Shown here: positions 5,097 through 22,021 of the stretch, one piece after another | Numbering within the stretch: the stretch's first letter is position 1 | Layout of the letters: each line of letters starts with the position of its first letter | Source: Acidobacteriota bacterium | Lineage (GTDB): Bacteria > Acidobacteriota > Thermoanaerobaculia > Gp7-AA8 > JAHWKK01 | DNA: 34,293 nucleotides | Direction: 5' to 3' | Assembly (NCBI GenBank): GCA_019347945.1 | Contig: JAHWKK010000031.1 | Location: 1 to 34,293, forward strand | Translations under genes and position numbers: made by a program | Notes under the pieces: model-generated | Database searches by the model: none | The model's input: the letters and a program-made list of their open reading frames with translations, nothing else | What the model was told of the DNA's origin: nothing

Positions 5097-5741
5097 ATGA
5101 AGAAGTTCTACGGCAGCATCGGAATGGCGGCGGTCGCGCTGCTGATGGCAGTCATGGTGGTGGCGTGCGCGGAGGAAGCGACAGCATCGTTCGATGGCCC
5201 AGCACCGGAGGTCGGCAAGGCGGCTCCGGGCTTCAGCGTCGCGGACACCAACGGTCAGACGCATTCTCTCGACCAGTACCGCGGCAAATGGGTGGTTCTC
5301 GAGTGGCTGAATCACGGCTGCCCCTACGTAAAGAACCACTATGACACCGGAACGATGCAGGCGCTGCAGAAGAAGTACGCGGCTCAGGATGTGGTCTGGC
5401 TCTCGATCGTCTCCTCGGCGCCGGGCAAGCAGGGGCATTACTCGAATGAGCGCGCCAACGAGCTGACGCAAGAAAAGAATGCGTCACCTCATGCCGTGCT
5501 CGTCGACTCATCAGGGACGATCGGCAGGGCCTACCACGCACGCACGACTCCGCACATGTTCGTGATCAATCCCGAGGGGAACATCGTTTACATGGGCGCA
5601 ATCGATGACACGCCGACTACGAATGCCGACCGCCTGAAGACGGCCCGTCCGCTCGTCGACATCGCGCTCCAGGAGGCGATGGCAGGCAAGCCGGTCAGCG
5701 TTCCGGCGAGTCAGCCGTACGGCTGCAACGTCAAATACTGA
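5097..5741 (+). CDS. Redoxin-family (peroxiredoxin-like) lipoprotein
   Basis: 214 residues; start ATG 5097 has a strong ribosome site GAGGAGG just upstream, 19 bases after the DsbD-like stop. The N-terminus is a signal peptide ending in a lipobox (MVVAC, Cys 24), so the protein should be lipid-anchored. The AhpC/TSA-type thioredoxin fold follows: GKAAPGFSVADTNG, then WVVLEWLNHGCPYVKNHY with the active-site cysteine (Cys 75), then TTPHMFVINPEGNIVYMG. A second cysteine sits at the extreme C-terminus (PYGC, about 210) and could act as resolving residue. The CPYV motif is typical of the PRX-like1 group of secreted redoxins. It probably receives electrons from the upstream DsbD-like protein. Confidence 0.88.
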   Translation: MKKFYGSIGMAAVALLMAVMVVACAEEATASFDGPAPEVGKAAPGFSVADTNGQTHSLDQYRGKWVVLEWLNHGCPYVKNHYDTGTMQALQKKYAAQDVVWLSIVSSAPGKQGHYSNERANELTQEKNASPHAVLVDSSGTIGRAYHARTTPHMFVINPEGNIVYMGAIDDTPTTNADRLKTARPLVDIALQEAMAGKPVSVPASQPYGCNVKY

Positions 5742-5780
5742 GATTTGAGCTCGAGCAATCACAATCCACGAGGAGGGTTC

Positions 5781-6389
5781 ATGAACAAGTTCTATCGCAG
5801 CATCGGAATGGCGGCGGTCGCGCTGATGATGGCAGGCACGTTGATGGCGGCACCGGAGATCGGCAAGGCAGCTCCGGGCTTCAGCGTCACGGACACCAAC
5901 GGCGAGACGCATTCTCTCGACGAGTACCGCGACAAATGGGTGGTTCTCGAGTGGCTGAATCACGACTGCCCCTACGTGCGGAAGCACTACGACAACGGAG
6001 TGATGCAGGCGCTGCAGAAGAAGTACGCCGACCAGGGTGTCGTCTGGCTCTCGGTCGTCTCCTCGGCGCCCGGCAAGCAGGGCCATTTTCCGAATGAGCG
6101 CGCCAACGAGCTGACGAAAGAAAAGAAGGCGGTACCTCATGCCGTGCTCGTCGACTCAGCAGGCACGGTCGGGAGGGCCTACGCCGCACGCACGACTCCG
6201 CACATGTTCGTGATCAATCCGGAGGGCAACGTCGTCTACATGGGCGGGATCGATGACAAACCGACTGCACGTGCCGCCGACCTGAAGACGGCCCGCCCGC
6301 ACGTCGACATCGCGCTTCAGGAGGCGATGGCAGGCAAGCCGGTCAGCGTACCGACGAGTCAGCCGTACGGCTGCACAGTGAAGTATTGA
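5781..6389 (+). CDS. Redoxin-family (peroxiredoxin-like) periplasmic protein, tandem paralogue
   Basis: 202 residues from ATG 5781, which follows a strong GAGGAGG site; an in-frame upstream start at 5745 lacks one. The protein is very similar throughout to its upstream neighbour, including the DCPYV active site (Cys 63) and the C-terminal PYGC cysteine, so the pair arose by tandem duplication. Unlike the neighbour, its signal peptide (ALMMAGTLMA) has no lipobox cysteine, so it should be a soluble periplasmic protein. The two genes thus put the same catalytic domain in two places, membrane-tethered and free. Third gene of the DsbD operon. Confidence 0.87.
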   Translation: MNKFYRSIGMAAVALMMAGTLMAAPEIGKAAPGFSVTDTNGETHSLDEYRDKWVVLEWLNHDCPYVRKHYDNGVMQALQKKYADQGVVWLSVVSSAPGKQGHFPNERANELTKEKKAVPHAVLVDSAGTVGRAYAARTTPHMFVINPEGNVVYMGGIDDKPTARAADLKTARPHVDIALQEAMAGKPVSVPTSQPYGCTVKY

Positions 6390-9157: not shown

Positions 9158-9988
9158 TCACTCTTCAACCCCGCGGATCCTGCGGGAGAACTCGGGATCG
9201 TCCGCGAACCGCTCCGCGGCTTCATTGATTCTGAACCGCTCGCGGATCATCTCCCGCGAAAGGTCCGTATCGATCAGGCCCAGCTCCAAGGCGAGCTCGT
9301 CGGAGTGTCCCGGCAGGATCACGCCGCGCTGGAGGCGCGGCACCCGTCCGGGGGCGATCGTGTTGACGTGTGACACGAGATTCGTCGTGCAGGTATTCGT
9401 GAGCGTGTTGTAGTGCTCGGGCTCGGCGGCGAGTTGATTCGCACGGCCGAGCATGTCGAGAAACATCGCGCGCGCCCGATCGGGTGTCGTGCGGATAGGG
9501 TAGAGGAAGACGTCGTTGCGGCGGTGATTCGCGCGAAGTCCGATCAGGTCGCGCTCGTCGGCGACGACGTACATGAGCTCGTACTGTCGCAGCAGTCCTC
9601 GGAATGGTGAGAACGACTCCCCCTGCTCCTTCCGGATCTCGACCGAGATCGCGACGTATTCGTCGTTCTCGAAGCCGAAGCTGACGAAGGTGTGCGCCAA
9701 TGCGCCCCAGCCGCCGAAGGGCTCCACGACGAACCAGACGGTCTCTAGCTCGCGGAGATCATAGGTGCGCTGTTCCCAGCGCGGCGTGAGGTCTGTCTCC
9801 GACTTGTAATCGAAGTTCCGGACGTTGCGGATGGTGACGAGCGGATCGTCGACGACTGCCGTCGCCAGCCGCGACTGATCGATGGTCCAGTCGCGATCAT
9901 TTGACGGCCGCACGATCGCCGCGAACCCCAACCACACCAGGAGCAGCGTAACCACCGTTCCTGCCACCCATTGAATCCATCGTCGCAT
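9158..9988 (-). CDS. DUF4105 (Lnb N-terminal-like) membrane-anchored protein, intact copy
   Basis: 276 residues. An N-terminal hydrophobic anchor (VAGTVVTLLLVWLGFAAIV) is followed by a periplasmic domain of the DUF4105 type: AHTFVSFGF with a conserved histidine near residue 100 and YNTLTNTCTTNLV with the conserved cysteine near 200, the arrangement of an NlpC/P60-like papain-fold hydrolase. Family members are thought to act on cell-envelope substrates or lipid-linked groups; the substrate here is unknown. The first 69 codons are duplicated almost exactly at 19096-19305, where the gene is truncated. It lies downstream of the BASS transporter gene. Confidence 0.85.
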   Translation of the reverse strand: MRRWIQWVAGTVVTLLLVWLGFAAIVRPSNDRDWTIDQSRLATAVVDDPLVTIRNVRNFDYKSETDLTPRWEQRTYDLRELETVWFVVEPFGGWGALAHTFVSFGFENDEYVAISVEIRKEQGESFSPFRGLLRQYELMYVVADERDLIGLRANHRRNDVFLYPIRTTPDRARAMFLDMLGRANQLAAEPEHYNTLTNTCTTNLVSHVNTIAPGRVPRLQRGVILPGHSDELALELGLIDTDLSREMIRERFRINEAAERFADDPEFSRRIRGVEE

Positions 9989-11053
9989 CGCCCGGGTATC
10001 TTAGGCTCGGTCCGGAGTAGGAGGCCTAACGCCCAGGCGTAAGAGGTGCGGAGCTCACGTACATGGCGCACTCGGACTGCCTGGCAGCGCTCGGCAACGA
10101 ATCGGACGGCTGGGAGCGCCGGTCAGCCTGCGGGGGAAAGCGCGCTCTTGGCCGCATCCACGGCTGGTATGCGGGCCCATACCGCGGCGAGGGCGAATCC
10201 GAAGACGAGGTGAACCACGCCCCACAGGATCGAGGTGATCGCCACTCCCGCGAGGTTGGGAAAGAACGCTACTGCCAAACCGACAGCCAGTGCGACGTTC
10301 TGAAACGCGACCTCCAGTGTCACCGCGCGGCGGTCGCCGGCCACAAGGCCGGAAACCCGGGCGAGAGACCAGCCCAGCACCGCCGCGACGGCGAACGTGA
10401 ATAGAACCGGAGGCAGCGCGGAATTGGCGAACGCGCCGAGCACCTTGATGTTGCCCAACAGCAGGATCGCCACCACAATGGCGAACACGCCCCCGGCGAC
10501 GCGGCGCGACCACAGGCGAATCCTGTTCGCCGTCCCGGGCCGCCTGGCGCGAATGAGCATTCCGGCTGCCACCGGCACGATCAACATGATGAGCAGCACC
10601 ATGACCACCCGCTTGGGATCAATCTCGATTCTTTGGAGGACGGCCCTGGTGGCGGGATTCATCGCCGCCCAGAATCCGAACAGCAGCGGCGTGGCCACGA
10701 TGCTGAACAGCGTCGAAACCGCCGTCATGCTGACCGACGTGGCCACACTGCCGCGCGCCACGCCGGTAAGGTAGTTCGACAGCGCCCCGGCTGGGCAACA
10801 GGCCACGAGCAGCAGGCCGAGCGCGATGCTCGGCGTGTCGGCCATCATGCGGCCGAATCCGTAAGCGACACCGGGCAGGATAATGAACTGCGCGACGAGT
10901 CCGATAAGCGGCGCCCTGGGGCTTCTGAGGATACGGCGGAACTGCTCCCACGTCAGGTCCAGCGCCACGGCGAACACGAGAAAGCCCACCATGACCGCGA
11001 CGGCGATGCCGACTGTCGGGCTGAAATTGAATGACGCCTGATCGATGTCCATG
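9782..11053. repeat. 1,272-bp direct duplication, copy 1
   Basis: This segment recurs at 19099-20370 in the same orientation with an exact 9,317-base offset. It covers the first part of the DUF4105 gene, the 134-base gap and the whole BASS gene, ending at the BASS start codon. By eye only about four to five substitutions separate the copies (for example in ACGTACATGG/ACGCACATGG and near 11013), so the duplication is very young or kept uniform by conversion. No transposase or short target repeat was seen at its edges. Confidence 0.93.
10123..11052 (-). CDS. BASS-family (bile acid:sodium symporter-like) transporter, copy 1
   Basis: 309 residues, almost entirely hydrophobic with about nine or ten predicted helices and a short charged tail. 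The family signatures are present: ACCPAGALSNYLTGVARGS near residue 84-102, with the unwound-helix motif, and RRAVTLEVAFQNVALAVGLA near 240, the second cross-over region. BASS transporters couple sodium to uptake of organic anions such as bile acids, pantoate or pyruvate; the substrate here is unknown. It differs from copy 2 at very few positions (Val against Ala near residue 14). The sequence before its start lacks the good ribosome site of copy 2 (GGGAGAG), so this copy may be weakly translated. Confidence 0.9.
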   Translation of the reverse strand: MDIDQASFNFSPTVGIAVAVMVGFLVFAVALDLTWEQFRRILRSPRAPLIGLVAQFIILPGVAYGFGRMMADTPSIALGLLLVACCPAGALSNYLTGVARGSVATSVSMTAVSTLFSIVATPLLFGFWAAMNPATRAVLQRIEIDPKRVVMVLLIMLIVPVAAGMLIRARRPGTANRIRLWSRRVAGGVFAIVVAILLLGNIKVLGAFANSALPPVLFTFAVAAVLGWSLARVSGLVAGDRRAVTLEVAFQNVALAVGLAVAFFPNLAGVAITSILWGVVHLVFGFALAAVWARIPAVDAAKSALSPAG

Positions 11054-11090: not shown

Positions 11091-11681
11091 TTATTTTTGT
11101 TTCGACTTCCTCGATCTGAATGTCGGACAGTAGCGCTCCGACACTCCCGCCGCCAGCGGCTCGTCGAGGTCCACGTCATTGCGGCTCCTCTGCGCCCCCC
11201 AGGAGAACACGTTCTCGAAGAGCGGAAGCCACCGGTCGTTTCGCACCATCTCGAGAAAATGGACCTCATGCTCTTTCTCGCGGAGACCCATCTCATGAAG
11301 GATCTCGTCGTGCGCCTCGATGCCGAGGTCGTGGAAGTAGCGGATCATGATGTAGTACTCGCAGACGTTTCCACTCTCGAGTCGGCCGGCGAAGTAGTAG
11401 GGCATGAAGCGACCGATCACGTGGCAGGCCAGTCCGATGGTCCGTCCGATGAGCTCATACTTGATCTCGAGCCACCGCGAGATTGGAACGTCGTACCTCG
11501 CCATGATCCGGAGGACGTTCTCTCGATGATCCCACTCGTCCTGCTCGATTCGTCGGACGGCGGCCTTCTCCAATGGATCCCGAAGCGAGGCAGCGTGGCC
11601 GACGTACGCGAGCGAAGCCGCCTTCTCCGCCGAGTAAGCCGTCTGGAGTGAGCGGACGAGTTGGGGATGATCGAGTTTCAT
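11091..11681 (-). CDS. Ferritin-like di-iron protein (COQ7/ubiquinone-hydroxylase-like fold)
   Basis: 196 residues, mainly helical. Candidate metal ligands: Glu in YSAEKAASLAY (about 19), EQDEWDH (ExxH, about 46-52), Glu in NVCEYY (about 105), and REKEHEVHF (ExxH, about 133-140), which match the four-helix two-iron pattern with two ExxH motifs. Between helices 2 and 3 lies a hydrophobic stretch (IGRTIGLACHVIGRFMPYYFAG), as in membrane-attached COQ7-type hydroxylases. Reaction and substrate are not known. It lies upstream of BASS copy 1 on the same strand, separated by 38 bases, but the duplication junction at 11053 falls in that gap, so the pairing may be accidental. Confidence 0.7.
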   Translation of the reverse strand: MKLDHPQLVRSLQTAYSAEKAASLAYVGHAASLRDPLEKAAVRRIEQDEWDHRENVLRIMARYDVPISRWLEIKYELIGRTIGLACHVIGRFMPYYFAGRLESGNVCEYYIMIRYFHDLGIEAHDEILHEMGLREKEHEVHFLEMVRNDRWLPLFENVFSWGAQRSRNDVDLDEPLAAGVSERYCPTFRSRKSKQK

Positions 11682-11734: not shown

Positions 11735-11832
11735 CGCCACATGTAAGTTGGGGTCAAACCTCGAACCGCCACATGTAAGTTGGGGTCAAACCTCGAATCC
11801 TAACTTAACGCGGACCGGATCGCCTGGATCGA
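11735..11832. repeat. Tandem partial left ends of the transposase element
   Basis: A 32-base unit (11735-11766), containing the AAGTTGGGGTC terminus, is repeated immediately at 11767-11798. After the second unit the match to the element's left end continues (about 11789-11832: TAACTTAACGCGGACCGGAT and GCCTGGATCGA) and then stops where the family-2 repeat begins. No right end is present, so these are abandoned or one-ended copies. Confidence 0.75.
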
Positions 11833-11837
11833 GGTGA

Positions 11838-12085
11838 GGGTCACACCTTCGTTTTTCGACTCGACCCTCATTGCTGCCTCGCAGGCATCCTACTCCTCGT
11901 GGAGAGATGTGACTAAAGTTTCCATTCCAGGGAGAAAAGCGATCCAGAAAACGACAGTCTCGGATGCTGGTGTGATCGGTGGTCCGAAGATGCAGAAGGC
12001 GAGATCCTTCGCGGCGCTCAGAATGACAGTTAGAGAGTGTAGAGGGTCACACCTTCATTCCGAGCGCAGCGAGGCATCTCGGTTC
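11838..12085. repeat. Truncated family-2 repeat and a dispersed-repeat stretch
   Basis: From GGGTCACACCTTCGTTTTT at 11838 the sequence matches the 128-bp element at 18561-18688 for about 120 bases (up to about 11957) and then loses the right terminus. It runs on into a low-information stretch (about 11996-12085) with GAGATCCTTCGCGGCGCTCAG and ATTCCGAGCGCAGCGAGGC, which has the look of the dispersed palindromic repeats common in GC-rich genomes. Another family-2 end, GGGTCACACCTTC, lies at 12044-12056. The 484-base gap 11682-12165 contains only such repeats and no credible gene. Confidence 0.65.
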
Positions 12086-12165
12086 CCTTCCCCTGATCCG
12101 GTAGCGCGCGCCGGCCCGTAAGCGGGCATAATGCCGCTCGTCCCATTCCCAAGGAGGAGTGCTTG

Positions 12166-13269
12166 ATGAAGGAGCATCTGCCCGAGTACTTCGCGGAGTT
12201 TGCCGGCACCGCGATCATGATGGCCATCGGCACCGGAGCCATCGTCTTCATGTGGTCCGAAGGCTCGATGATGACGGAGCTGATCCCTTCAGAAGCCCTG
12301 CGGCGCCTCGCCACCGGAGTGCTCTTCGCGGGCGGGGCGACGCTGGTGGTGATCTCGCGCCTGGGGCAACGCAGTGGCGGGCACCTGAATCCGGCGATGA
12401 CGCTTGCCTTCTGGTGGAAGGGACAGGTGGCACCGCCCGACCTGTTCGCTTACGCCGGCGCGCAGATCGCCGGCGCGCTCCTGGGCGTGTGGATCGTCGC
12501 GATGGTGGGCGGCGCCGCGGCCGAGAGCGTGCAGTGGGGCATTACCCTTCCGGGCGCCGGCTACTCGGTGCCCGAGGCGTTCCTCGCCGAGGCGGTCATC
12601 ACCTTCCTGCTGGTCTTCCTGGTGCTTTTCTGCGTGAGCAACCAGCGCTTTGCCGCCGCCACCCCGTTCCTCGCCGGCGCGCTGGTCGCATTCCTCGTCT
12701 GGGTGGAGGCGCCGATCTCCGGCACGGGCTTGAATCCGGCGCGCAGCTTCGCGCCGGCGCTGGTGAGCGCAAGGTTCGAGCATCACTGGCTCTACTGGAT
12801 CGCACCGGCGGTGGGCGCCATCGCAGCGGTGGTCCTTTTCGCCCGGACGGTCGACACGGCCGAGCGCCCCGGCTGCGCCAAGCTGTTCCACACGGAGCGC
12901 TACCGGTGCATCTTCCTGCAGTGCGCCTACGAAGTATTTCCCGCCGGGCGCGTGGTGATGCGCGAAGGCGAGCAGGCCGTGTTCGCGTATGTCATCGAAG
13001 AAGGCGAGCTCGAGGTGCGCAAGCGCGCCGAGGACGGCAGCGAGCGCGTGCTCTCGCGGCTCGGCCCGGGAGAATGGGCCGGCGAGCTCGGAATGCTCCT
13101 GCGCCTGCCGCGCTCGGCCACGGTGGTCGCGTCGCGCGACTCACGTCTGCGCATGGTGACCGAGCAGAACTTCAAGCACGTGATCGCCGAGCACCCGACG
13201 GAGACCGAGCGGCTCCTGCGCCAGCTCGCGAAGCGCCTGCACGAGACGAGCGCGCAGCTGGTCCTCTAG
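12166..13269 (+). CDS. Aquaporin/MIP channel fused to a cyclic-nucleotide-binding-like domain
   Basis: 367 residues from ATG 12166, preceded by the ribosome site AAGGAGGAG; a TTG one codon earlier is ignored. Residues 1-228 form a six-helix MIP channel with both NPA motifs (GGHLNPAMTL, NPA 75-77; GTGLNPARSF, NPA 190-192). A cysteine-containing linker (about 229-255) leads to a Crp/cNMP-binding-type jelly roll (about 255-345): MREGEQAVFAYVIEEGELEV, then GEWAGELGMLLRLPRSATV (306-320), which matches the phosphate-binding cassette FGE(x)ALL...R(S/A)AT. This suggests a water, glycerol or small-solute channel gated or tuned by a nucleotide. MIP proteins rarely carry such a domain. The gene converges on the amylase-like gene (8 bases apart). 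Confidence 0.9.
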   Translation: MKEHLPEYFAEFAGTAIMMAIGTGAIVFMWSEGSMMTELIPSEALRRLATGVLFAGGATLVVISRLGQRSGGHLNPAMTLAFWWKGQVAPPDLFAYAGAQIAGALLGVWIVAMVGGAAAESVQWGITLPGAGYSVPEAFLAEAVITFLLVFLVLFCVSNQRFAAATPFLAGALVAFLVWVEAPISGTGLNPARSFAPALVSARFEHHWLYWIAPAVGAIAAVVLFARTVDTAERPGCAKLFHTERYRCIFLQCAYEVFPAGRVVMREGEQAVFAYVIEEGELEVRKRAEDGSERVLSRLGPGEWAGELGMLLRLPRSATVVASRDSRLRMVTEQNFKHVIAEHPTETERLLRQLAKRLHETSAQLVL

Positions 13270-13277
13270 AGGCTGCC

Positions 13278-14780
13278 TCAAGCGGCCGCGGCCACCCGGA
13301 AAAGGTGCGCAGCGTGCCCGTCCAGGCGAACGAAGAGCCCGTTCGCCTCGAGGTCGCCGCGTTCGCGCTCGTAGTACCGGTCGTCCAGCGCATCGACGAA
13401 GTGGAAGCGCGCGCCGGCGGGAAGCTGGGCGCCAACCGGCAGGCGCCCCTGCGCCGCCGCGGCCGACATGTTGACGACGACCAGTGCGTATCCGTCGTCA
13501 AGGCGCCAGCTCCAGGCGAGAAGCTGCTCGTGGCTGCGGTCGCTGTCGGGCGCGGCGTGCACGAGCGACCAGGTCCCGGCATGAAACAGCGCATCGTCGG
13601 TCGCGTGCAGCACGCGTTCGTAGACCGCACGCAGCGCGAGATCGGCCGACTCGGCGCGCGCCGCATTGAGCGGCATGGGCAGATGCACCGAGCGGCCTTC
13701 GAACTGGCCCTGGTGGAAAAAGCGCAGCCCCGGCAGCGTGGCGATGAGCGCCGCCAGGCCGGGAAGGCGCGCACGTCCATAGGCTTCCGCCGCGCGGTGT
13801 TCGTCGTGGTTTTCCAGGAAGCGCGCGAGCTTCGATTGGTAGGCGATGTCCGCCGAAAGGTGGGCGCGAAGCTCGTGCGCATTTCCGGCACGCAGCCGGT
13901 CGTACAGGCGCTTGTCGTAGGTGAAGTCGAAACCCAGGTCCTGGAGCGTGCCTTCCATGTCCCAGTACACCTCGGCCATCCACAGGAAGTCCTGCGGCAG
14001 GGCGGCGATCGCGGCTGGCCAGAACTCGTCCGCCGGCGGTGGGCCACTGAGCAGCCGACCCCAGGTGCGCGCGAACACGTCGTTCAGCACCAGCATCGCC
14101 ATGTCGCAGCGCACCCCGTCGCAATGCCGGGCCACGGAGCGCAGCACCTCCAGCATCGCCGCGCGCGCTGCCGGTTCGAAGTAGTTCACCTGGGCCGTAT
14201 CGGTCCACGGCGCGAAGTAGGGATCGCGCCCGCGGGCGACGAAGTACGGCGAGCGCCCGGCCGGCTCCACGAGGATGAATGACGCGGGATTGCGCTGGTA
14301 GTCGGCCTGGCTGCCGCCGACGAAATACTCCGGATGGGAGTCGATCCAAGGATGGTCCGGGCCGAGGTGGTTGGGTACGAAATCGAGGATGAGTCGCATG
14401 CCACGGGCGTTGAGCTTCGCGCGAACCGCGTCCAGGGCTGCCCAGTCGCCGATGCGCGGGTCCGGGGCGTACTCCGTGATCGAGAAAGGCGAGCCGACCA
14501 CCGCCTCGAGCGTCCATCCGGGAAATGCGCGGTCGAAGTGGCGAAAGTTCGCCGCGTCGGTACGGAAATGGCGCCGTCCGGCGATGCTTCGCTTCCATAC
14601 GCCGAGCAGGTACACGAAATCGAAGCCGAGCCCCGCCAGGTGATCCCATTCGGCGTCAGGTACGTCAGCGAGCGTGAACGGGCGACCGGCTGCCGCGCCG
14701 AGCTCTTCGAGCCACGCCCAGGTGTTGATCTGGTACAGGTGCGGATGAAGTCGCCACGGCTTGGGGCGGGTCGGGGACAT
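13278..14780 (-). CDS. GH13 alpha-amylase-family glycosidase or glucanotransferase
   Basis: 500 residues from ATG 14778-14780 with an AAGGAG site upstream. All four GH13 regions are visible: LILDFVPNH (130-138), DGVRCDMAM with the nucleophile Asp 226, [10 protein letters not shown] with the acid/base Glu 270, and FLENHDEHR with the transition-state Asp 326. A C-terminal beta domain follows (about 400-500). There is no signal peptide, so it acts in the cytoplasm. The family covers hydrolases, trehalose synthase-like mutases and transferases; this N-terminus ([13 protein letters not shown]) is unlike a classical secreted amylase, and the exact reaction is open. It is divergently arranged with the GH63-like gene over an 88-base shared promoter region. 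Confidence 0.88.
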
Positions 14781-14868
14781 CGCGCTCGCGCTCCTTGTCC
14801 GGTTGTATTTCCGAGAGTTGCGGTCGACACGCTATCATGCGTGCCACAACAGGCCCCAAAGGAGAGCG
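14781..14868. promoter_or_regulatory. Shared divergent promoter region of the sugar cluster
   Basis: This 88-base gap separates the divergent amylase-like and GH63-like genes and must hold both promoters. A TATCAT hexamer at 14833-14838 is a fair -10 candidate for the plus-strand operon, but no convincing -35 at the right distance was found, and no clear operator dyad is visible. The plus-strand ribosome site AAAGGAGAG ends just before the ATG at 14869. Confidence 0.4.
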
Positions 14869-17612
<2,744 letters not shown>

Positions 17613-17616
<4 letters not shown>

Positions 17617-18416
17617 CCTACCAACCCCTCGTGGGCCAGAAGGCGCTCGTGACCGGAGCAAGCTCGGGCATCGGCGCGGGCGTGGCGCTGGCACTCGCCC
17701 AGGCCGGCGCCGAAGTCGTCGTGAATTACTCCTCGAGCCTTGCGGGCGCCGAGAAAGTCGTGGACGAGATCACCGCATCCGGCGGCAAGGCCTTCGCGGT
17801 GAAAGCGGACATTTCCCAGGAAGCCGACGTGAAGGCCATGTTCGACGAGACGATCGCGAAGCTCGGCACCATCGACATCCTGGTGAACAACGCCGGGTTA
17901 CAGCAGGACGCGGCCTTCACCGACATGACGCTCGCCCAGTGGAACCGGGTGATCAGCATCAACCTCACCGGCATGTTCCTGTGCTCGCAGCTCGCGGTGC
18001 GGGAGTTCGTGCGCCGTGGCCAGAAGTCGTATTCCAGGGCGCTCGGCAAGATCATCTGCATGTCCTCCGTGCACGAGGTCATTCCCTGGGCCGGGCATGT
18101 GAACTATGCGGCCTCCAAGGGCGGGGTCAAGCTCTTCATGCAATCCCTCGCTCAGGAAGTGGCCCCCCTCAAGATCCGGGTGAATTCGATCGGTCCGGGC
18201 GCGATCGCGACACCGATCAACCGTGCCGCCTGGGAGACGCCCGAGGCGCTGACCAAGCTCCTCGAGCTGATTCCCTACGGACGTATCGGCCTGCCGGACG
18301 ACATCGGCAAGGCAGCGGTGTGGCTCGCCTCCGACGACTCAGATTACGTGAACGGCCAGACGATCTTCGTCGACGGCGGCATGACGCTTTACCCGGAATT
18401 CGCGGACGGCGGCTGA
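17613..18416 (+). CDS. SDR-family dehydrogenase (glucose 1-dehydrogenase-like)
   Basis: 267 residues. The ATG at 17613 overlaps the preceding TGA, so translation is coupled. Classical short-chain dehydrogenase features: TGASSGIG (14-21) for NAD(P) binding, NNAG (92-95), catalytic Ser 151/152, Tyr 165 and Lys 169 (YAASK), and a C-terminal [12 protein letters not shown] that resembles Bacillus-type glucose 1-dehydrogenases (DGGMTLYP...). The expected reaction is oxidation of beta-D-glucose to gluconolactone with NAD(P) reduction, consistent with a glucosidase directly upstream. Assignment of the substrate is inference from this similarity and from context. Confidence 0.88.
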
Positions 18417-18560
18417 CACGCGACCGTGCAAGGACCGCGATGGCCATGACCATGCCGCATCCGGAGAATTGATCGACCTTCGGCTTTCCCTGCCTCCAGG
18501 CTCAAAAAAAGCGGGGCCACGTCTTTGATTTTCGGCGCACGGGCCGACGATCGGAGGTGA

Positions 18561-18688
18561 GGGTCACACCTTCGTTTTTCGACTCGACCCTCATTCTGCC
18601 TCGCAGGCATCCTACTCTTCGTGGAGAGTTGTGACGAAAGTTTCCATTCCAGGGAGAAAAGCGATCCAGAAAAACGAAGGTGTGACCC
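18561..18688. mobile_element. Family-2 short inverted-repeat element, complete copy
   Basis: GGGTCACACCTTCGTTTTT at 18561-18579 is exactly inverted at 18670-18688, giving a 128-bp unit with perfect 19-bp termini and no gene. The interior carries CTACTCTTCGTGG. A right-truncated copy is at 11838. The size and ends are those of a non-autonomous, REP/MITE-like element. The rest of the gap 18417-18724 shows no ORF or other structure. Confidence 0.8.
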
Positions 18689-19095: not shown

Positions 19096-19305
19096 TCACG
19101 GCGTGAGGTCTGTCTCCGACTTGTAATCGAAGTTCCGGACGTTGCGGATGGTGACGAGCGGATCGTCGACGACTGCCGTCGCCAGCCGCGACTGATCGAT
19201 GGTCCAGTCGCGATCATTTGACGGCCGCACGATCGCCGCGAACCCCAACCACACCAGGAGCAGCGTAACCACCGTTCCCGCCACCCATCGAATCCATCGT
19301 CGCAT
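19096..19305 (-). pseudogene. Truncated DUF4105 gene (N-terminal 69 codons)
   Basis: Starting at 19305, this copy equals the first part of the intact gene at 9158-9988 and then ends at a TGA formed by foreign sequence at the duplication junction (19096-19098). Only the membrane anchor and a short part of the periplasmic domain remain; the histidine and cysteine of the putative active site are lost. It still sits downstream of BASS copy 2. Confidence 0.88.
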
Positions 19306-20370
19306 CGCCCGGGTATCTTAGGCTCGGTCCGGAGTAGGAGGCCTAACGCCCAGGCGTAAGAGGTGCGGAGCTCACGCACATGGCGCACTCGGACTGCCTG
19401 GCAGCGCTCGGCAACGAATCGGACGGCTGGGAGCGCCGGTCAGCCTGCGGGGGAAAGCGCGCTCTTGGCCGCATCCACGGCTGGTATGCGGGCCCATACC
19501 GCGGCGAGGGCGAATCCGAAGACGAGGTGAACCACGCCCCACAGGATCGAGGTGATCGCCACTCCCGCGAGGTTGGGAAAGAACGCTACTGCCAAACCGA
19601 CAGCCAGTGCGACGTTCTGAAACGCGACCTCCAGTGTCACCGCGCGGCGGTCGCCGGCCACAAGGCCGGAAACCCGGGCGAGAGACCAGCCCAGCACCGC
19701 CGCGACGGCGAACGTGAATAGAACCGGAGGCAGCGCGGAATTGGCGAACGCGCCGAGCACCTTGATGTTGCCCAACAGCAGGATCGCCACCACAATGGCG
19801 AACACGCCCCCGGCGACGCGGCGCGACCACAGGCGAATCCTGTTCGCCGTCCCGGGCCGCCTGGCGCGAATGAGCATTCCGGCTGCCACCGGCACGATCA
19901 ACATGATGAGCAGCACCATGACCACCCGCTTGGGATCAATCTCGATTCTTTGGAGGACGGCCCTGGTGGCGGGATTCATCGCCGCCCAGAATCCGAACAG
20001 CAGCGGCGTGGCCACGATGCTGAACAGCGTCGAAACCGCCGTCATGCTGACCGACGTGGCCACACTGCCGCGCGCCACGCCGGTAAGGTAGTTCGACAGC
20101 GCCCCGGCTGGGCAACAGGCCACGAGCAGCAGGCCGAGCGCGATGCTCGGCGTGTCGGCCATCATGCGGCCGAATCCGTAAGCGACACCGGGCAGGATAA
20201 TGAACTGCGCGACGAGTCCGATAAGCGGCGCCCTGGGGCTTCTGAGGATACGGCGGAACTGCTCCCACGTCAGGTCCAGCGCCACGGCGAACACGAGAAA
20301 GCCCACCATGACCGCGACGGCGATGCCGGCTGTCGGGCTGAAATTGAATGACGCCTGATCGATGTCCATG
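19099..20370. repeat. 1,272-bp direct duplication, copy 2
   Basis: Same orientation and content as 9782-11053. The left edge lies inside the DUF4105 coding sequence and 12 bases from the family-3 repeat; the right edge is exactly at the BASS start codon (20370), after which the sequence differs completely from copy 1. Together the two copies bracket the ferritin-like gene and the sugar cluster. Confidence 0.93.
19440..20369 (-). CDS. BASS-family transporter, copy 2
   Basis: 309 residues, identical to copy 1 except for Ala near residue 14 where copy 1 has Val. All membrane helices and the CPAGALSNYLT and RRAVTLEVAFQN motifs are kept. It is preceded by GGGAGAG, a reasonable ribosome site, and follows the methyltransferase gene by 34 bases, so it looks like the original operon context. 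A sodium-coupled organic-anion carrier is expected; the substrate is unknown. Confidence 0.9.
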   Translation of the reverse strand: MDIDQASFNFSPTAGIAVAVMVGFLVFAVALDLTWEQFRRILRSPRAPLIGLVAQFIILPGVAYGFGRMMADTPSIALGLLLVACCPAGALSNYLTGVARGSVATSVSMTAVSTLFSIVATPLLFGFWAAMNPATRAVLQRIEIDPKRVVMVLLIMLIVPVAAGMLIRARRPGTANRIRLWSRRVAGGVFAIVVAILLLGNIKVLGAFANSALPPVLFTFAVAAVLGWSLARVSGLVAGDRRAVTLEVAFQNVALAVGLAVAFFPNLAGVAITSILWGVVHLVFGFALAAVWARIPAVDAAKSALSPAG

Positions 20371-21039: not shown

Positions 21040-21186
21040 GGGCCACCTCACTTGGTCGAGTGTCGCAGGTCACGAATGTCGCAACCATAGTCACTTTCGT
21101 GTGGTGGGGCAACCGGGCATTTGTCCATCGTCTGACAGGCAGGTGCGCTCTGGACAGGGCGCTCGCCCGCTCAGCAAAAAGCGGGT

Positions 21187-21429
21187 AAGTCGGGGTCAAA
21201 CCTCGAATCTCAACTTAACGCGGAACCGGATCGCCTCGATCGACCGGCGGAACCCACGGTCGCTCCACTTGAGCTGCTCGCACTTCCGGGGTCATCTCGA
21301 GACTGCGGGCTCGGCGGGATAAATGAGTGCCGGATGAAGGCCAGATCGTTGCCCGGTGACCGAGTGGAGCGCGATCGTACCTCGGAGCGCCGCGTCGGTA
21401 AGTTATGTTTCAAGGTGCGACCCCAACTT
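21187..21429. mobile_element. Internally deleted transposase element (MITE-like), copy B
   Basis: Left end AAGTCGGGGTC (one mismatch to the canonical end) and right end GACCCCAACTT. The interior matches the two outer parts of the element at 370-1466 and lacks about 840 bases, joining the equivalent of positions about 496 and 1341 at GCTCGGCGGG. Nothing of the transposase active site remains, so movement would need the enzyme in trans. Confidence 0.85.
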
Positions 21430-21772
21430 CACCAACGAGATTGATGAACTGCCTCCCCGAACTACGACAGAACTCACAGCCTTTGTAAACGAGAGGAAGG
21501 GATCAGCCGTAGCCTCGAAAGGTTATCGGTTGTGGGAGTTTTTCGTCCCTCTTCACGACGCGCAAGTTCGGCCCTCACGATTCGTGGAAACAGAGAAATT
21601 CGGCATCGCAACAATCTCCACACTCCGATACATCGATATCGAGAGTAGAGACCATAGCGAGCTGATTGAGCTCGCCTTCGAGATGATGGAGAAGGACATC
21701 GAATACGTCGTCAAGGTCTTCCATCCTCCCAGACGCAATACGTTGGAGAAGCTCGACGCAGCCAGCGGGTAA
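21430..21772 (+). pseudogene. Both-end-truncated gene fragment between two MITE-like copies
   Basis: An open frame of about 113 codons fills the whole space between copies B and C. The protein has ordinary composition (TNEIDELPPRTTTELTAFVN, LWEFFVPLHDAQVR, FETEKFG-like VETEKFGIATIST, FEMMEKDIEYVVKVFHPP) but no ATG at its start, and its stop TAA (21770-21772) is made by the first bases of copy C. It thus appears to be an interrupted gene. I do not recognise the family. Confidence 0.5.
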
Positions 21773-22011
21773 GTTGGGGTCAAACCTCGAATCTCAACTT
21801 AACGCCCACCGGATCGCCTCGATCGACCGGCGGAACCCACGGTCGCTCCGCCCGAGATGCCCGCACTTCTGGATCATCTCGAGACTGCGGGCTCGGCGGG
21901 AAAACGAGCGGCGGATGAAGGCCAAATCGTTGCCCGGTGACCGAGTGGAGCGCGATCCTACCTCGGAGCGCCGCGTCCACTAAGTTACGTTTCAAGGTGC
22001 GACCCCAACTT
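21771..22011. mobile_element. Internally deleted transposase element (MITE-like), copy C
   Basis: Perfect AAGTTGGGGTC at 21771-21781 and GACCCCAACTT at 22001-22011. It is the same length class as copy B and has the identical deletion junction (GCTCGGCGGG), in the same orientation, so B and C descend from one deletion product. Confidence 0.88.
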
Positions 22012-22021
22012 CGTCCTCATC

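Follow-up and report, generated by a model that had tools for sequence, protein, structure and literature searches.

Direct gating of aquaporins by a second messenger has long been debated for AQP1. The locus described here raises the question of whether a bacterial channel of this family carries such a switch in its own chain: in the window (the whole stretch of 34,293 nucleotides that was analysed, from an Acidobacteriota bacterium) one gene joins a MIP channel to a cyclic-nucleotide-binding domain (CNBD). A sequence-only reading of this DNA had proposed that the gene, which lies next to sugar genes, encodes a solute channel under second-messenger control. Among the readings considered, this proposal is still the one best supported: it rests on domain homology, on binding residues that are intact and invariant, on the purifying selection that acts on the tail, and on the presence of predicted adenylate cyclases at the locus in one lineage of relatives.

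The gene is a single uninterrupted frame whose product begins MKEHLPEYF; its coordinates, and those of its motifs and neighbours, are collected in Table 1. As had been read from the letters, its 367 codons translate without a stop, both NPA motifs lie in a MIP channel domain, the linker bears cysteines (C237, C248 and C253), and the tail contains the GEWAGELGMLLRLPRSATV cassette (residues 302-320). The MIP and cNMP_binding matches score 131 and 71 bits against Pfam cut-offs of 25 and 27.5, respectively, and are the only domains found by Pfam; the protein has no VGIC-type cation pore, the criterion for the CNG/HCN family. Its solved relatives are aquaporins for the MIP half, and PKA/PKG regulatory domains and CRP-type regulators for the CNBD half. 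The fusion is the sole match covering the MIP part in its own genome (G000), and other CNBD proteins of that genome match its tail at about 23-34%. Rfam and sigma-70 scans around the gene gave no matches.

Table 1. Features of the fusion gene and its neighbourhood (window coordinates).
Feature	Position	Strand	Basis
MIP-CNBD fusion gene, 367 aa	12166..13269	+	single frame; Pfam MIP and cNMP_binding; 14 full-length homologues
Ribosome-binding-site-like AAGGAGG, 5' of ATG 12166	12151..12157	+	sequence
MIP channel domain, residues 5-224	12178..12837	+	PF00230 E 6e-38; PDB matches AQP4, AQP5, AqpM, AqpZ
First NPA motif, residues 75-77	12388..12396	+	sequence; same in 12/12 fusions checked
Second NPA motif, residues 190-192; predicted filter A55, V178, T187, R193	12733..12741	+	sequence; filter by fixed NPA offsets
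Linker motif C237-AKL-x-H242-T-x2-Y-x-C248-x-F-x2-C253	12874..12924	+	residues invariant in 15/15 fusions
CNBD, residues 257-343	12934..13194	+	PF00027 E 7e-20; AF2 tail model resembles MtbCRP, GlxR, CRP
Phosphate-binding cassette GELGMLLRLPRSA, residues 306-318	13081..13119	+	PKA/PKG Glu-to-Arg spacing; invariant core residues in 15/15
GH13 alpha-amylase-family gene, convergent with fusion	13278..14780	-	PF00128 E 7e-11
GH63/MGH1-like glycoside hydrolase, conserved neighbour	14863..17616	+	PF22422 E 6e-22, PF03200 E 1e-8
Glucose-1-dehydrogenase-like SDR, overlaps hydrolase stop by 4 bases	17613..18416	+	best PDB match glucose 1-dehydrogenase E 3e-71; syntenic in L011 (79%)

The search for the same architecture that the sequence-only reading had suggested was fruitful. 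The first two full-length homologues (54-55% identical) came from a scan of genome contigs. In all, 14 genomes besides the window's encode full-length MIP-CNBD proteins, 47-65% identical to that of the window; with the window's own included, at least 15 bacterial genomes from three lineages have the architecture. By whole-genome search it was found in 11 of 217 genomes of one gammaproteobacterial family (so named here because the family includes a record titled Gammaproteobacteria) and, in a different class of the window's phylum, in 3 of 193 genomes, all three in one family. No other fusion was detected in the window's class at E<=1e-40 among 149 genomes, nor in its order at E<=1e-35; the viral contigs scanned held none, and plasmid records contributed stand-alone MIPs and no fusion among the matches listed. 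The window protein is nearest to two proteins of the gammaproteobacterial family (65%), whereas its identity to the fusions from its own phylum is 47-51%; the neighbouring hydrolase and SDR are 76% and 79% identical to their counterparts in L011. Together, these relationships point, by inference, to horizontal transfer. A tree of the MIP part requires one change of state for the fusions; its support is weak (77/70, 75% of bootstraps), and consequently a single origin is favoured rather than demonstrated. The L011 record is titled Klebsiella pneumoniae MAG but carries nearly the same locus as L012, a Gammaproteobacteria MAG, and is probably mislabelled.

The selectivity filter predicted from the NPA offsets, A-V-T-R, is shared by all 12 fusions checked and by stand-alone relatives from Nostoc and Frondihabitans; its arginine, R193, directly follows the second NPA (N190-P-A), and the first NPA is at N75. 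This filter differs from both F-H-T-R, found in AqpZ, and W-G-F-R, found in GlpF, which places the protein outside the Aquaporin Z and GlpF-type subfamilies, and the NCBIfam equivalog models for AqpZ and Gla score it at 76 and 23 bits against cut-offs of 256 and 400. Plant NIP-II channels, whose filter is A-I/V-G/A-R, pass boric acid, glycerol and urea. By analogy, A-V-T-R appears closer to the NIP-II type than to AqpZ or GlpF and, since the AqpZ and Gla cut-offs are not reached either, the pore is predicted to be wide and to admit small uncharged solutes (glycerol-like, urea-like, possibly water).

The neighbouring genes suggest where such a channel might work. The sugar genes of the sequence-only reading are real (GH13, GH63/MGH1-like and SDR), but the partners of the fusion are the GH63-like and SDR genes and not GH13: the GH63/MGH1-like hydrolase neighbours the fusion in 13 of 15 cases, and in the relatives mapped against L011 it lies directly beside the fusion with no GH13 gene between. 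In Nostoc, Deinococcus and Frondihabitans, MIPs of this branch that stand alone also lie beside glucose 1-dehydrogenase and glucosidase, GH1 or GH15 genes, which makes the association of MIP, glucosidase and dehydrogenase independent of the CNBD, and the CNBD an added control. The window's GH63-like hydrolase had no PDB match by phmmer. A characterised glucosylglycerate hydrolase has been discussed alongside GH63 (PMC6608630), and for this reason a compatible solute is, by analogy, a possible candidate substrate.

Several repeats and duplicated genes were observed in the window. A 1272-bp direct repeat (9782-11053 and 19099-20370, 99.7% identical), each copy with an SBF-family transporter gene (309 aa), lies on both sides of the segment that contains the fusion and the GH13, GH63-like and SDR genes, a layout expected from either a recent duplication or integration by a single crossover. 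Just inside it, a 125-bp direct repeat (11827-11951 and 18549-18673, 96% identical) flanks the sugar-gene block. A family of 130-250 bp repeats marks the edges (366-496 and 1340-1467) of an ORF resembling REP-associated transposases (393-1349, minus) and recurs at 21180-21430 and 21764-22012. Tandem duplicate ORFs of 214 aa each (5097-5741 and 5745-6389; 84% DNA identity over 672 bp) are redoxin-like by eye, and the product of 11091-11681 (minus) is ferritin-like, with a COQ7 match below threshold (E 0.0016).

By sequence, the tail has features expected of a working CNBD. G306, E307, P315, R316 and A318 are invariant in the alignment of 15 fusions, E307 and R316 have the Glu-to-Arg spacing of PKA/PKG cassettes, and the tail matches the SthK CNBD by sequence (E 3e-8). 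In close pairs with unsaturated dS the dN/dS of the CNBD is about 0.07-0.13 (0.046/0.70 for L011/L012, 0.067/0.53 for L061/L063 and 0.012/0.13 for L060/L062), which indicates purifying selection, although in most pairs the CNBD changes faster than the MIP part. An AF2 model of the tail (pLDDT 65) consists of a beta-roll and C-terminal helices; the PDB structures nearest to it (Foldseek E 4e-9) are M. tuberculosis CRP, GlxR and E. coli CRP, in cAMP-bound and apo forms, and part of the cassette falls under pLDDT 50. A full-length model from three input sequences was set aside at pLDDT 48. The cNMP-binding residues are present by homology, and models at pLDDT 48 (full length) and 65 (tail) are too weak for pocket geometry. 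Because of the invariant cassette residues, the PKA/PKG spacing, the low dN/dS and the CRP/GlxR-like model, the tail is very probably a ligand-binding CNBD, and we infer that its ligand is cAMP.

Between the two domains, C237, H242, C248 and C253 are invariant in all 15 fusions. The same C-H-C-C motif follows the last MIP helix in stand-alone MIPs of the window's class (L013, L015 and L019), and so belongs to the MIP branch rather than to the fusion. Lying directly below the membrane, it may bind a metal or serve as a redox site.

A predicted source of cAMP lies close to the gene in one lineage. The genomes of L011 and L012 (G149 and G150) each have just two PF00211 cyclases, both about 5-8 kb from the fusion: one is a GAF-PAS cyclase of adenylate type, and the other is smaller and lacks the usual Lys. 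One or both are kept at this place in L058-L062 and L071. The gene order in this gammaproteobacterial lineage is CNBD protein, cyclase, HD-motif protein, GAF-PAS cyclase, GlgA, GlgC, fusion, GH63-like hydrolase, SDR, and a FAD/Fe-S protein with two CNBDs; this order is kept, with losses, in L058-L062 and L071 where contigs reach far enough; L058, for example, is without the GAF-PAS cyclase. Since all genomes with the cyclase linkage belong to one lineage, it counts as one conserved arrangement. No cyclase is present near the fusion in the window, and none was seen near it in L056, L057 and the three f89 genomes. A freely diffusing messenger needs no cyclase close to the channel gene. In the window's genome an FHA-GAF cyclase (L037 9550-11199) agrees with adenylate-type class III enzymes at the metal, Lys, Thr, Asn and Arg positions, and PF00211 has a second, weak match there. 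This FHA-GAF cyclase and the GAF-PAS cyclase of the locus both have the adenylate-type Lys (DKFIGD) and Thr (DYTV) together with metal and transition-state residues.

Further CNBD proteins are encoded at fusion loci (L011 1550-2083, L011 14796-17270 and L056 1573-4635). The second, which in the gammaproteobacterial lineage adjoins the fusion locus, is a FAD oxidoreductase that combines two CNBDs with 4Fe-4S motifs; a protein of the same type, 40% identical, is encoded elsewhere in the window's genome (L036 8546-10927). The third, close to its MIP-CNBD gene, is an ABC transporter with membrane and ATPase regions and a C-terminal CNBD. A protein with an HD-hydrolase-like pattern (RxYHxLxHxxMV ... 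GLFHD) occurs at two locus types (L011 3203-4519, L058 2681-3937, and L056 6562-7983, minus). It has no Pfam or PDB support, and as a candidate phosphodiesterase it is only a lead.

Given that at least 15 genomes from three lineages have retained the fused gene, which in one lineage lies beside enzymes predicted to make cyclic AMP, the protein probably acts as a solute channel that a second messenger switches directly. In its fuller form, this explanation has cAMP bind directly to a working cytosolic C-terminal CNBD and so modulate a MIP channel for small solutes, in a glucan/glucoside locus, and we consider it the likely one. MIP channels are tetramers, and four CNBDs would consequently lie under the membrane per channel, as in CNG/HCN/MlotiK1 channels. 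cAMP made by a class III cyclase would bind these domains; the short conserved Cys/His linker would carry the movement of beta-roll and C-terminal helix over to the last membrane helix and the loops near it, and the pores would open or close. Membrane permeability would thus follow carbon or energy state, as signalled by cAMP, during glucan or glucoside mobilisation. More tentatively, the fusions might represent a class of ligand-gated aquaporins, in which cAMP on the fused CNBD gates the MIP pore and the Cys3His linker couples the two, possibly as a metal or redox co-sensor, within a cAMP-controlled glucan/glucoside locus.

The CNBD might instead bind cAMP without gating the pore. It would then act on the channel's assembly, stability or location, or on its binding of partners (it might, for instance, recruit the hydrolase or dehydrogenase), and the signal would alter the place or amount of the channel. 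We know of no common gate in MIP pores on which CNBD movement could act, and the presence at relatives' loci of CNBD proteins of unlike function, a redox enzyme and an ABC transporter, fits a general docking or allosteric module. However, the length and motif of the linker are conserved in 15 of 15 fusions, which suggests mechanical coupling, an argument that is not decisive because stand-alone MIPs without a CNBD have the Cys/His motif too. We regard control without gating as unlikely. Some proteins of the CNBD fold bind other ligands or none, and many members of the CRP/FNR superfamily do not bind cAMP. The tail could by this token sense another nucleotide, heme or a metabolite, or be a ligand-free structural domain, and a metal or redox site in the conserved Cys3His linker would suit such a sensor. 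Nevertheless, the cassette Glu and Arg, usually missing from CNBD-family members that bind no cyclic nucleotide, are invariant here, and predicted adenylate cyclases are present in the genomes, in one lineage at the fusion locus itself; a different ligand, or none, is more unlikely still. Finally, a frameshift, assembly or annotation artefact joining two genes is a negligible prospect, given the single frame, the one ribosome-binding site and the 14 other genomes that encode the same end-to-end protein without an internal stop.

With direct switching by cAMP as the preferred reading, the fusion acquires a wider interest. The MIP and CNBD modules are each known; no description of their combination turned up in the literature searched, in which subscription journals were mostly outside the scope, and it may stand in Pfam/InterPro architecture listings. 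As a conserved natural fusion, it offers a small bacterial protein in which second-messenger gating of an aquaporin can be tested. If the reading is true, an unrelated pore, in which each subunit has its own conduction path, has acquired a CNBD module, and cAMP is linked to solute permeability and to glucan or glucoside use in bacteria.

Among known systems, the effect of cGMP on human AQP1 is debated and AQP2 is controlled by PKA phosphorylation; both are cases of cyclic-nucleotide control of an aquaporin, but without a dedicated CNBD, and the control is debated or indirect. The stand-alone MIP branch with a C-terminal KLxH tail (Nostoc, Deinococcus and Frondihabitans; L041-L046) shares the pore family, the NPA motifs, the filter Arg, and glycoside hydrolase and glucose 1-dehydrogenase neighbours; unlike the fusion, these proteins end at about 250-280 aa, without a CNBD. 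CNG/HCN-type channels (MlotiK1, SthK) resemble the fusion in having a C-terminal cytosolic CNBD on a tetrameric channel, whereas their pore is a VGIC-type cation pore and that of the fusion is a MIP pore, one per subunit. The bCNG channels, which join an MscS-type channel to a CNBD (Caldwell et al. 2010, as cited in PMC4560390), are osmotic-type bacterial channels under cyclic-nucleotide control, as proposed for the fusion, but with MscS and not MIP as the channel part. Furthermore, SLC9C1 is, according to PMC10620091 and PMC6052114, a Na+/H+ exchanger gated by voltage and cyclic-nucleotide binding; like the fusion it carries a fused CNBD on a transporter other than a classical ion channel, although it is an animal exchanger with a voltage sensor.
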